Below are positions 7,100 to 62,873 of a DNA stretch of 64,000 nucleotides, in pieces. Origin of the DNA: Roseobacter weihaiensis (lineage in GTDB: Bacteria > Pseudomonadota > Alphaproteobacteria > Rhodobacterales > Rhodobacteraceae); NCBI RefSeq assembly GCF_020622345.1, contig NZ_JACNMO010000006.1, forward strand, positions 62,001 through 126,000, in the 5' to 3' direction. The notes beneath the pieces are model-generated. The model was given only the letters and a program-made list of their open reading frames with translations. It was not told where the DNA came from and did no database searches. Within the stretch, counting starts at the first letter, position 1; every line of letters starts with the position of its first letter. The position numbers and the translations under genes are program-made.

Positions 7100-7152
7100 T
7101 CGGTGGGACACCCTTCCCCAACGAAGGGCGCTTATCTGGAAGGATAGCATTG
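7100..7152 (+). promoter_or_regulatory. Structured serC leader, candidate serC RNA motif
   Basis: Immediately before serC there are two consecutive hairpins. The first pairs CCCTTC (7112-7117) with GAAGGG (7124-7129) around the loop CCCAAC. The second starts 2 bases later and pairs GCTTATC (7131-7137) with GATAGC (7144-7149), with one bulged T. The likely ribosome-binding site AAGGA (7141-7145) lies in the loop and 3' arm of the second hairpin, 7 bases from the ATG at 7153. A palindrome GACGCGTC lies just upstream. A conserved 'serC motif' has been described upstream of alphaproteobacterial serC genes. I match it by position and architecture, not by a covariance search. The layout suggests control of translation initiation. 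Confidence 0.6.
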
Positions 7153-40914: not shown

Positions 40915-41187
40915 ATGCTCGTCGCCTTGATTGCCCATGACAAACCCGGTGCATTGCCGATCCGGCAGGAAAACCGCCCGGCCCATGTCGACTACCTGAA
41001 GTCGGGATCGGCGGTGCGTCAGGCGGGTCCCTTGCTCGATGCGGAGGGGGAGATGTGCGGATCGTTGATTATTCTGGAAGTGGCAAACATGGCCGAAGCC
41101 GAAGCCTGGGCGGCACAGGACCCTTACGGAAAGGCCGGGCTTTTTGAAAAGCTGGACCTGATCGCCTGGAACCGGGTGATCGGGTGA
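40915..41187 (+). CDS. YciI-family small protein
   Basis: The 90-residue protein is a YCII-related ferredoxin-like fold protein. The family's His-Asp pair is visible in LIAHDKPGAL and RPAHVDYLKSG, followed by GEMCGSLIILEVANMAEAEA. Related proteins include dehalogenases and dimeric small enzymes, but the YciI group itself has no general function. It sits between gpsA and the EVE gene in a tight operon, its stop overlapping the EVE ATG by one base. Confidence 0.88.
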   Translation: MLVALIAHDKPGALPIRQENRPAHVDYLKSGSAVRQAGPLLDAEGEMCGSLIILEVANMAEAEAWAAQDPYGKAGLFEKLDLIAWNRVIG

Positions 41188-41609
41188 TGCGCTATTGGCT
41201 GTTTAAATCCGAACCCTCGACATGGAGCTGGGACGATCAGCTTGCCAAGGGCGATGTTGGCGAAGAATGGGACGGCGTGCGGAACTATCAGGCCCGCAAT
41301 TTCATGCGCGAGATGAAGGTTGGTGATCGCGGGTTCTTTTATCATTCGCAGAAAGAGAAATCCGTTGTTGGCCTTGTCGAGGTGATTGCGGAGGCGCATC
41401 CCGACAGCACAACCGACGATGACAGGTGGGAGTGCGTCGATATCAAGGCCCTCCGTTCGGTAAAGACGCCGGTGAGCCTCGAGATGGTCAAGCAGGACCC
41501 AAAGCTGGCAGAGATGGCGCTGCTGCGCAATTCGCGCCTGTCCGTGCAACCTGTCACAGCGGAAGAATGGCAGATTGTCTGCGCGATGGCAGGCGTGCCC
41601 CCGGAGTAG
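41187..41609 (+). CDS. EVE-domain protein
   Basis: The 140-residue protein is a stand-alone EVE (PUA-like) domain, with MRYWLFKSEPSTWSWDDQLA, VRNYQARNFMREMKVGDRGF and FYHSQKEKSVVGLVEVI. This fold binds modified bases in DNA or RNA. Solo EVE proteins (YtfJ/thymocyte nuclear protein 1-like) are common in proteobacteria and their ligand is unknown. It is the last gene of the tsaD-gpsA-yciI unit, and tsaD makes a tRNA modification, which is suggestive but not evidence. A TGTCAGC/GCTGACA hairpin lies just past the stop. Confidence 0.92.
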   Translation: MRYWLFKSEPSTWSWDDQLAKGDVGEEWDGVRNYQARNFMREMKVGDRGFFYHSQKEKSVVGLVEVIAEAHPDSTTDDDRWECVDIKALRSVKTPVSLEMVKQDPKLAEMALLRNSRLSVQPVTAEEWQIVCAMAGVPPE

Positions 41610-41682: not shown

Positions 41683-41788
41683 AAACAGAAAAAGGGTTCT
41701 GAGCCATCGCCAGAACCCTTCTTCGCCCCACGTGCTCCCATACCCACCGCACGTGTTTGAAACTGGTCCTGGCCATACTGGCCGGGTG
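41683..41788 (-). ncRNA. Candidate structured small RNA (three hairpins, own promoter and terminator)
   Basis: Read on the minus strand, the 294-base gap between the EVE gene and the DUF2853 gene has a promoter-like pair (TTGCAG, TATAGA, 16-base spacer) followed by three hairpins in a row. They are GGCCA/TGGCC (41771-41783), CACGTGC/GCACGTG with a 13-base G-rich loop (41729-41755) and AAGGGTTCTG/CAGAACCCTT (41692-41720). The last one runs into TTTTTCTGTTT, making it an intrinsic terminator. The predicted RNA is about 105 bases. No ORF fits. I do not recognise it as 6S, SRP RNA or another standard family. Confidence 0.55.
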
Positions 41789-41793
41789 AAATA

Positions 41794-41821
41794 TCTATAT
41801 CAGTCTACAGAAAAACTGCAA
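41794..41821 (-). promoter_or_regulatory. Promoter of the candidate small RNA
   Basis: On the minus strand TTGCAG (complement 41816-41821) and TATAGA (complement 41794-41799) are 16 bases apart. The -10 is followed by T and preceded by TGA, giving an extended -10 feel. Initiation would be near 41787, at the start of the first hairpin region. Confidence 0.5.
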
Positions 41822-41851
41822 TTTTTCAGTCGTTTAAAAGCAATCTAAAAT

Positions 41852-41878
41852 AGAAACGCCTCTTTAAGAAAAGAGGCG
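41852..41878 (-). terminator. Rho-independent terminator after the DUF2853 gene
   Basis: On the minus strand, CGCCTCTTT and AAAGAGGCG arms (plus-strand 41857-41865 and 41870-41878) enclose a 4-base loop and are followed by TTTCTATTTT. It separates the DUF2853 transcript from the small-RNA candidate downstream. Confidence 0.85.
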
Positions 41879-41903
41879 CCCCAAAATCCGCAGTTGCGTG
41901 AGA

Positions 41904-42245
41904 TTATCCGTAGACGGATTCTTTCCCGAAGTGCTTGGTCAGCATGTAGTAGACCACGGCGCGGTATTTGTTGCGCTCGGACTTGCCATAGGTCTCGATC
42001 ACCTTGTCGATCGCTTCCATCAGGGCCGGGCTATCCGCAAGGCCTAGTTTTTTCATCAGAAAATTCTCTTTCACCGTTTCCAGCTCAGCGGGCTGGCTGC
42101 TGGCGACGGTCGACGCATCCGCATCGTAGATTGACGGCCCGCACCCAATGGTGACCTTGGTCAACAGATCCATGTCCGGTGTCATACCGCATTTGTTTTT
42201 CAAATCGTCCGCATAATGCGCGATCAAATCGTCCCGCTTACCCAT
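41904..42245 (-). CDS. DUF2853-family protein
   Basis: The 113-residue all-helical soluble protein matches the DUF2853 family: MGKRDDLIAHYADDLKNKCG, then MDLLTKVTIGCGPSIYDADA and a C-terminal YYMLTKHFGKESVYG. The family has no known function. It has an intrinsic terminator immediately downstream and about 340 bases of apparent non-coding sequence upstream, so it is a single-gene unit. Confidence 0.85.
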   Translation of the reverse strand: MGKRDDLIAHYADDLKNKCGMTPDMDLLTKVTIGCGPSIYDADASTVASSQPAELETVKENFLMKKLGLADSPALMEAIDKVIETYGKSERNKYRAVVYYMLTKHFGKESVYG

Positions 42246-61646: not shown

Positions 61647-62873
61647 ATGGGCTATCTGCGCTTTCTCATTGAAAACAGGCTTTTCCTGCTGGGCGGCTTT
61701 ATTCTGTCTTTCTCGTCGTCCTACGGGCAAACGTTTTTCATTGCGCTCTTTGCGGGCGAAATCATGCGGGAGTTCGACCTGACGGATGGGCAGTGGGGCG
61801 GGCTTTATACGCTGGGAACGACAATCTCCGCCGCTACGATGATCTGGGCGGGCGTTCTTACCGACACCTACCGGGTCAGGTTGCTGTCGTTCTGGGTGAT
61901 GTTGCTGCTGGCCTTTGCCTGCCTTGCGATGGCGGTTGTGACCAACTGGATCCTGCTCATCGTGGTCATCTATTCGCTGCGGCTTTTCGGGCAGGGCATG
62001 ATGTCTGAAATTGCCTATGTCGCGATGGCCCGCTGGTTTGTCGCGGCGCGCGGGCGCGCGATTTCAATTGCCTCCATGGGGTTTGCCGCAGGACAGGCCG
62101 TGCTGCCAATCATCTTCGTGGCCTTGCTGGTGCTGTTTGACTGGCGGACGCTCTGGGTCATTGCAGCGCTTTGTGTGCTGGTGACGATCCCGGTGATCCA
62201 ACGCCTGCTGCGGCAGGAAAGAACACCGCAATCACTGGCCGAAAGTGATGCGAGCCTTGGCATGGGAGCAAAGCACTGGTCGCGGGCAGAGATGCTGCGC
62301 CATCCGCTTTTTTATCTGCTGGTGCCGCTAATGCTTGGCCCACCTGCCTGGGGCACAGCACTGTTCTTCCAGCAGGTACATCTGACCGAGACAAAGGGCT
62401 GGAGCCTTGTTTCCTATGTGTCGCTGATGCCAATTTTCACCCTGTCCATGATCGTCACCACCTTTGTGGCAGGCTGGGCCATTGATCGTTTCGGGGTGAA
62501 GTGGGTTGTCCCGTTCCAACTGATCCCCTTCGCTATTTCTTTCGTGCTGCTTTCTCATGCCGAGACGATTTTTGCCGCTGGGATCGCCCTGACCATCTTT
62601 GGGATCGGGCAGGGCATGCATGGGACAGCGATCACCGCCTTCTGGGCAGTCTTCTACGGGACGCGGCATCTGGGCGCGATCAAGGCAGGGGCGGCAGCGC
62701 TTATGGTCTTTGGCTCTGCCATCGGGCCGGGGATCACCGGGGTTTTTATTGACTACGGCATTGATTTTTCACAGCAAATGATACCGATTGCCGCATTTTA
62801 TCTTGTCGGTGCTGCGCTCGCTGGCCTGGGTGTGCTGCGCTACCAGCGCGATCTGGTCACCGCCGCCGTCTGA
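61647..62873 (+). CDS. Major facilitator superfamily transporter
   Basis: The 408-residue protein has about 12 hydrophobic segments and the MFS layout: cytoplasmic motif VLTDTYRVRLLSFWVMLL after helix 2, an AYVAMARWFVAARGRAISIA loop and the second half starting around LLVPLMLGPPAWGTALFF. The substrate cannot be predicted. I start at ATG 61647 with AGGTGG 3 bases upstream. A TTG at 61605, overlapping the hslU stop, is the longer alternative. It may be the last gene of the hsl unit. Its end overlaps the convergent Smr gene by 17 bases. Confidence 0.85.
   Translation: MGYLRFLIENRLFLLGGFILSFSSSYGQTFFIALFAGEIMREFDLTDGQWGGLYTLGTTISAATMIWAGVLTDTYRVRLLSFWVMLLLAFACLAMAVVTNWILLIVVIYSLRLFGQGMMSEIAYVAMARWFVAARGRAISIASMGFAAGQAVLPIIFVALLVLFDWRTLWVIAALCVLVTIPVIQRLLRQERTPQSLAESDASLGMGAKHWSRAEMLRHPLFYLLVPLMLGPPAWGTALFFQQVHLTETKGWSLVSYVSLMPIFTLSMIVTTFVAGWAIDRFGVKWVVPFQLIPFAISFVLLSHAETIFAAGIALTIFGIGQGMHGTAITAFWAVFYGTRHLGAIKAGAAALMVFGSAIGPGITGVFIDYGIDFSQQMIPIAAFYLVGAALAGLGVLRYQRDLVTAAV

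Follow-up and report, generated by a model that had tools for sequence, protein, structure and literature searches.

A candidate small RNA gene of the Rhodobacteraceae, predicted to carry a helix that competes with its own terminator

A short stretch on the minus strand of a Roseobacter weihaiensis contig very likely encodes a real small RNA that is absent from the RNA family library searched. Comparison with relatives points to a stand-alone small RNA gene that was confined, in our searches, to the Rhodobacteraceae, a family of abundant marine and phototrophic bacteria. The RNA is predicted to have two folds that exclude each other, and in one of them the terminator of the RNA itself would be blocked. 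Our main reading, to which we assign a probability of about one-half, is that of an autonomous sRNA whose release is governed by the choice between terminator and antiterminator. An initial annotation of the window (the whole 64,000-nucleotide stretch analyzed, positions 62,001 to 126,000 of contig NZ_JACNMO010000006.1; positions below count from the first letter of the window) had proposed a free-standing small RNA of no recognized standard family, with a G-rich loop that could pair with pyrimidine-rich mRNA segments or bind a CsrA-like or Hfq-like protein. Taken as a whole, that interpretation is partly supported; the fixed gene neighborhood and the alternative helix described below go beyond it.

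RESULTS

Elements of the locus

The promoter-like site, three hairpins, and terminator of the initial annotation can all be read from the minus-strand sequence where it had placed them (Table 1). The RNA is likely about 100 nt long, running roughly from 41785 to 41684; the match of covariance model R1 in the organism's own genome (G000:C68:103685-103789, minus strand) corresponds to 41685-41789 of the window. TATAGA had been given as the -10 element, and the TA conserved in relatives is offset from it by 2, at TAGATA, with a spacer of 18. An intrinsic terminator with a U-rich tail, one criterion for Hfq-dependent sRNAs, is found both in the sequence and in the compensatory changes of its stem; in the window the T-tail is broken up by C and G.

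Table 1. Features of the small RNA locus in the window
Feature	Position	Strand	Basis or remark
Small RNA, ~102 nt	41684..41785	-	Putative ends; model R1 match; kept in relatives
-35 element TTGCAG	41816..41821	-	Sequence; TTG anchored in 124/125 rows
-10 element TAGATA	41792..41797	-	TA in 119/124 anchored rows; overlaps TATAGA
TATAGA, -10 element of the initial annotation	41794..41799	-	16-base spacer to TTGCAG
T-tracts before -35, ~10-base steps	41827..41850	-	T-frequency in anchored rows
Hairpin 1, GGCCA-GTA-TGGCC	41771..41783	-	Sequence, compensatory changes; one significant pair
Alternative helix, 5' strand CCAGGACC	41765..41772	-	Pairing, folding, and arm-swap tests
Hairpin 2, CACGTGC/GCACGTG, G-rich 13-base loop GGTGGGTATGGGA	41729..41755	-	One significant pair
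Alternative helix, 3' strand GGTTCTGG	41710..41717	-	Within and next to terminator 5' arm
Hairpin 3, intrinsic terminator, arms AAGGGTTCTG/CAGAACCCTT	41692..41720	-	Five significant pairs
T-rich terminator tail	41683..41693	-	Sequence
DUF2853 terminator-like site, between DUF2853 and the RNA	41853..41882	-	Simple scan
DUF2853 gene	41904..42245	-	Pfam PF11015; upstream of the RNA, same strand
EVE-domain gene	41184..41609	+	Pfam PF01878; downstream of the RNA, convergent

The predicted fold of the RNA from 41794 to 41686 has an energy of -47.5 kcal/mol (z = -3.52), which none of 200 shuffles equaled. A small protein gene was rejected as an explanation: among the 100 of 125 aligned rows that had the core motif serving as an anchor, in-frame stops occurred in 57, 48, and 50 rows in the three frames.

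A simple consensus scan, in which the sole promoter-like site lay elsewhere (0.9 expected) and the terminator rule permitted loops of at most 8 only, listed neither the promoter of the RNA nor its own terminator. Each of the two is weak by simple consensus alone, and the support for both comes from conservation in relatives, not from a consensus score. The same scan did list a terminator-like site between DUF2853 and the RNA, in agreement with the claim that a terminator of the DUF2853 gene isolates the RNA.

The TTG of the -35 element could be anchored in 124 of the 125 rows; in 120 of these, it precedes the first base of the RNA row by 29 to 36 bases. The spacer is 17 or 18 in 121 anchored rows and TA is present in 119 of 124. 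All of these counts, that of TTG included, are inflated because the scan sought TTG and favored TA and these spacers. The T-tracts further upstream played no part in the anchoring; across the 124 anchored rows, T has a frequency of 0.90 at -27, 0.90 at -17, and 0.69 at -7 relative to TTG. They may be the site of an activator or a form of UP element.

Distribution among genomes

Matches were found by blastn in 50 of 198 family genomes, and the covariance model found the RNA in 252 of 394 Rhodobacteraceae genomes at E ≤ 0.01 (own genome included in both), which argues that the locus is not a chance occurrence. All eight congeners (8/8) carry it. Among the matches listed, there were two per genome in G061, G114, and G131, one of them at or near a contig start, and otherwise one. 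A search of contigs returned at least 117 stretches; among the 80 matches listed, 78 were titled as Rhodobacterales taxa, the other 2 bore titles giving class or phylum only, and none was titled R. sphaeroides, P. denitrificans, or R. pomeroyi. Searches covering more than 40 genomes ran stricter filters that miss weak matches.

In the loci examined, the RNA occupies one fixed place, between ahcY/DUF2853 and a convergent EVE/YciI/gpsA operon. Eight of 385 genomes of the class matched at E ≤ 0.1, 5 of them family members, own included. The nonfamily matches (L064, L065, and L066) had none of the five neighbor genes at E ≤ 1e-3, and L064 looks like a plain terminator; all three are taken as spurious. 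Thus, no convincing homologue was found outside the Rhodobacteraceae among the 385 class genomes searched.

Within the family, the RNA seems to be truly absent from a part of the genomes. In 20 family genomes without an RNA match, DUF2853 was matched in only 6 (loci L169-L174). The DUF2853 and EVE matches lie only 54 to 65 bases apart in L170, L171, and L173, so that the RNA cannot fit; in L169 the space suffices, yet the sole model match scores 5.0 bits. The best score among these six loci, 17.1 bits in L172, overlaps the end of DUF2853. We also noted that DUF2853 is present in those 6 of 20 genomes lacking the RNA, compared with 56 of 64 loci in which it lies upstream of the RNA, and the two may have been lost together.

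Conservation of the three stems

Relatives align with a conserved core and variable flanks. Alignment A2 comprises 29 rows, among them that of the window; of its 30 candidate loci, L013 was omitted because a contig end truncates it. Alignment A3 draws on loci that are not in A2. Its 96 sources were fitted to a three-stem model that lacks the alternative helix described below, and the 11 weakest fetched matches (L158-L168) were omitted. The structure predicted from A2 has 23 pairs, 15 of which show double changes. For the named three-stem structure, 95.8% of A2 cells are paired and double changes occur in 15 of 24 pairs (2 in hairpin 1, 3 in hairpin 2, and 10 in hairpin 3), with none of 500 shuffles reaching these values.

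A phylogeny-aware, R-scape-like test was applied to the 96 rows. Its tree was derived from the same RNA columns, and redistributing the substitutions over this tree gave 40 null alignments. Seven of the 24 canonical pairs reached E ≤ 0.05, one in hairpin 1, one in hairpin 2, and five in hairpin 3. E was 0 for pairs 9-17 (hairpin 1), 38-61 (hairpin 2), and 69-101, 70-100, 71-99, and 72-98 (hairpin 3) and 0.05 for pair 73-97 (hairpin 3). Pairs 79-91, 76-94, and 77-93 had E values between 0.1 and 0.6, and the remaining 14 of 24, many of them almost invariant, were not significant. The initial annotation had named covarying substitutions in relatives as a check on its stems, and compensatory changes were found in all three. 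Together with a conserved promoter of its own, these changes support the free-standing small RNA that it had proposed.

Because the locus sits between convergent transcription units, one could read it as no RNA gene at all, but as a bidirectional terminator between convergent genes accompanied by chance hairpins or as an inverted-repeat site in DNA. The window shows a separate terminator-like site for DUF2853, the promoter and hairpins 1 and 2 are conserved, and the compensatory changes in hairpins 1 and 2 suit an RNA better than a fixed DNA site; we regard this reading as hardly credible.

The arms of hairpin 2 and the GGGTG that follows are the best conserved parts of the RNA, with hairpin 1 and the G-rich loop next. 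The hairpin 2 loop plus GGGTG would likely form the contact surface. A G-quadruplex and pairing with CU-rich sRNAs are also conceivable.

A predicted alternative helix in competition with hairpin 1 and the terminator

In the window, CCAGGACC (41772-41765) is complementary to GGTTCTGG (41717-41710), and pairing of the two would compete with hairpin 1 as well as with the terminator. The RNA thus has, as predictions, a terminator helix and an antiterminator helix that exclude each other, a criterion for transcriptional riboswitches and attenuators. In all 29 A2 rows, the two regions can form an ungapped duplex of 6 to 15 pairs, G-U pairs included, in a register that varies among rows.

In A2, 89.9% of the alternative helix cells are paired (0/500 shuffles) and 3 of 8 pairs show double changes (1/500); the pair types are unremarkable, being equaled or exceeded in 499 of 500 shuffles. 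Of the cells in the 96 other rows, 83.2% are paired and 57 have double changes (0/500 shuffles each), the less telling measures being pairs with double changes (242/500) and pair types (27/500). For paired cells, double-change cells, and covariation score, no shuffle of 500 reached the observed value in either set. When the helix is shifted by one column, 72.0% (29 rows) and 71.2% (96 rows) of cells still pair because of G and C runs in that region.

An arm-swap test compared the 5' segment paired with its own terminator arm (-16.9 kcal/mol) and with the arms of the six nearest relatives (-14.4 kcal/mol), the relatives being picked by identity in the hairpin 2 region and not from a species tree. 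The own arm was better in 75 of 96 rows (P = 4.3e-10). The positive control, with the true terminator partner, gave P = 1.8e-17, and the negative control, with a linker/hairpin 2 segment, gave P = 0.35; all of these P values overstate the evidence, since the rows are not independent. In an all-pairs phylogenetic test, the best alternative pair, 22-77, was not significant alone (E = 36). Thirteen canonical pairs and one that adjoins the terminator stem outscored it, placing it fifteenth, and the remaining seven pairs of the alternative helix scored lower still. We conclude that co-adaptation of the alternative pairing is well supported overall and less so by the strictest single-pair test.

The growing window RNA was folded in steps of 3, and the alternative helix was predicted at 84 to 96 nt and the terminator from 99 nt. 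With the RNA cut before the terminator 3' arm, 99 of 125 rows (the window among the 125) had at least one alternative pair above 0.5 probability and 26 had none. In 97 of 125 rows, the predicted pairs were more numerous with the own arm than with arms swapped at random, in a folding test that likewise treats relatives as independent. At full length, an alternative pair exceeded 0.5 in only 0.04 of rows. This strong preference for the terminator suggests that the alternative helix may be a mere passing intermediate. When the window row carried extra 3' bases (117 to 118 nt), the minimum-energy fold lacked the usual hairpin 2.

Gene neighborhood

The neighbor survey covered 64 of 77 loci, with protein matches below 40% identity dropped. 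Upstream and on the strand of the RNA, DUF2853 (56/56) and ahcY (31/31) were so placed wherever found. Downstream, EVE (53/53), YciI (40/40), and gpsA (44/44) were on the opposite strand wherever found. A re-search of 30 weaker matches (E values of 8.6e-8 to 0.005) turned up at least one such neighbor for 29 and none for L163. EVE lies more than 250 bases away in 28 loci. In 23 of these loci, the gap has its longest frame on the strand opposite the RNA, and in the other 5 (L012, L042, L055, L148, and L149) on the strand of the RNA; these are longest frames, not gene calls. In L030, a weak gpsA-like frame (33% identity, under the 40% cut of the survey) lies on the strand of the RNA, 556 bases downstream.

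These data bear on whether the RNA could act in cis on a gene downstream of it, as an attenuator or riboswitch. The terminator/antiterminator layout with its highly conserved central hairpin is reminiscent of such an element, and the five same-strand frames and the gpsA-like frame of L030 also count in favor of it. The uniformly opposite orientation of EVE, YciI, and gpsA speaks against it, as does the window, where no sense gene follows the RNA. An ordinary riboswitch is therefore unlikely, and we judge this explanation very improbable.

Two further observations concern the neighbors. Many relatives have a small membrane-protein-like frame between the RNA and EVE, convergent to the RNA (L004, L005, L007, L019, L026, L033, L062, L063, L142, L143, and L146, among others), which we take to resemble DUF1761. 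The DUF2853 protein is 68 to 90% identical to that of the window in relatives carrying it beside the RNA; its Pfam name gives no function.

Hfq and CsrA

Fourteen genomes, 8 of the same genus (including Roseobacter weihaiensis) and 6 from other families of the class, were searched for RNA-binding proteins. An Hfq gene is present in all 14, and Hfq is a putative binding partner of the RNA. CsrA (PF02599) was found in none of the 14, own genome included, so the proposal that a CsrA-like protein binds the G-rich loop fails, and a CsrB-type CsrA sponge was rejected on the same count. More broadly, an RNA that sequesters protein might be suspected from the conserved GGGA in the exposed loop. With no CsrA in these genomes and just one such loop in the RNA, we consider this improbable, with sequestering of another RNA-binding protein a possible form of it.

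The RNA could also be an ordinary Hfq-type base-pairing sRNA in which the complementarity between CCAGGACC and GGTTCTGG helps folding, makes contact in a dimer, or is simply a by-product, without acting as a regulated switch. The rarity of alternative pairs in full-length rows, the Hfq genes, and a linker past hairpin 1 that is U-rich in the 96-row consensus all suit this view. The alternative helix nevertheless fits the RNA's own terminator arm better than the arms of its nearest relatives, and it also pairs in rows outside the set in which it was discovered; on these two grounds, some pairing by the helix appears to be under selection. We regard an ordinary sRNA as a serious contender of somewhat lower probability than our main reading.

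Known RNA families

No match above a gathering score was found over the stretch in the Rfam model search that had been suggested as a check, in keeping with the initial annotation, which had recognized no standard family. Twenty relatives searched against Rfam 15 gave 2 matches, both below the gathering score. With the RNA present in 252 of 394 family genomes, this constitutes an annotation gap. The only match at the gathering threshold within the window is a serC leader (RF00517) at 7101-7152 on the plus strand (72.5 bits, full model length).

DISCUSSION

Conservation of the gene and its promoter, three stems, a co-adapted helix, and a convergent context are what we computed. The mechanism that we favor, an autonomous sRNA released according to the choice between terminator and antiterminator, would add transcription, Hfq binding, a base-pairing function, and actual use of the switch. 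Transcription would start about 7 bases past the -10 element, and the transcript would fold hairpins 1, 2, and 3, with termination by hairpin 3. During synthesis, CCAGGACC behind hairpin 1 would pair first with GGTTCTGG of the terminator 5' arm, opening hairpin 1 and enclosing hairpin 2, and the terminator 3' arm would then have to displace this helix. The helix choice would set the frequency with which complete sRNA, its U-tail free, is released. The released sRNA would likely be bound by Hfq, and the G-rich loop of hairpin 2 could contact a target RNA or protein. The alternative outcome would be read-through, giving a longer RNA that is antisense to the convergent genes. Given that the genes known to lie downstream are convergent, one would expect the product to be either the RNA itself or this read-through antisense.

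Read-through at sRNA genes has precedent in Escherichia coli. The sgrS and ryhB terminators are described as showing frequent read-through, with termination enhanced under stress, and the 3'-extended SgrS and RyhB products as losing Hfq binding (PMC4509938). An antiterminator built into the gene would offer one means of setting such a ratio.

In a more elaborate and rather doubtful version, the gene would sense a signal through hairpin 2 (a ligand, protein, or partner RNA) and gate its own release. In the bound state, the antiterminator would hold and polymerase would continue, producing antisense RNA over EVE/YciI/gpsA; in the unbound state, the short sRNA would be released. If true, the gene would resemble a riboswitch that controls the sRNA itself as its output and not a downstream gene.

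Several known RNAs invite comparison. BjrC68 (RF02353) gave a weak model match spanning hairpin 2 and the terminator and was rejected: at 19.5 bits (E = 0.0077), the match is far under the gathering score of 39, weak matches in the 20 relatives numbered just 2, with one lying outside the RNA, and 0 of 142 class genomes exceeded the cutoff. StsR (RSs0827) of Rhodobacter sphaeroides, from the same bacterial family, is called an orphan sRNA (PMC8625941) and has a length of 72 nt (PMC8307010); it was rejected because the target of its published probe (PMC11354728) mismatches the RNA at 11 of 20 positions at best. The HRC-8-4 motif (Brewer et al. 2021) is likewise a Rhodobacterales-only structured RNA with a conserved terminator-like stem, and it is set apart by its reported location, mainly between cco operons (PMC8632094). 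The sRNAs listed for Ruegeria pomeroyi and Paracoccus denitrificans may be linked to this RNA, although the text consulted does not place them beside these genes (PMC4809877, PMC5107571). The literature searched yielded no printed description of the RNA, which RNA-seq lists or supplements may already hold.

The closest parallels are in architecture. SgrS and RyhB of E. coli share with this RNA a promoter of their own, stem-loops, and a terminator with a U-tail, and a short hairpin before the SgrS terminator has been suggested to limit terminator formation (PMC4509938). They differ in that the RNA described here has an upstream segment co-adapted with the terminator arm across many genomes, an element that the text consulted (PMC4509938) describes for neither SgrS nor RyhB. 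Control of read-through at sRNA genes is known in E. coli, with its regulation left open in that study (PMC4509938), and the co-adapted helix offers a testable case for an sRNA gene with its own terminator/antiterminator switch. With attenuators and transcriptional riboswitches, the RNA shares two mutually exclusive helices that use the same terminator 5' arm; it differs from them in that the known downstream genes are convergent.
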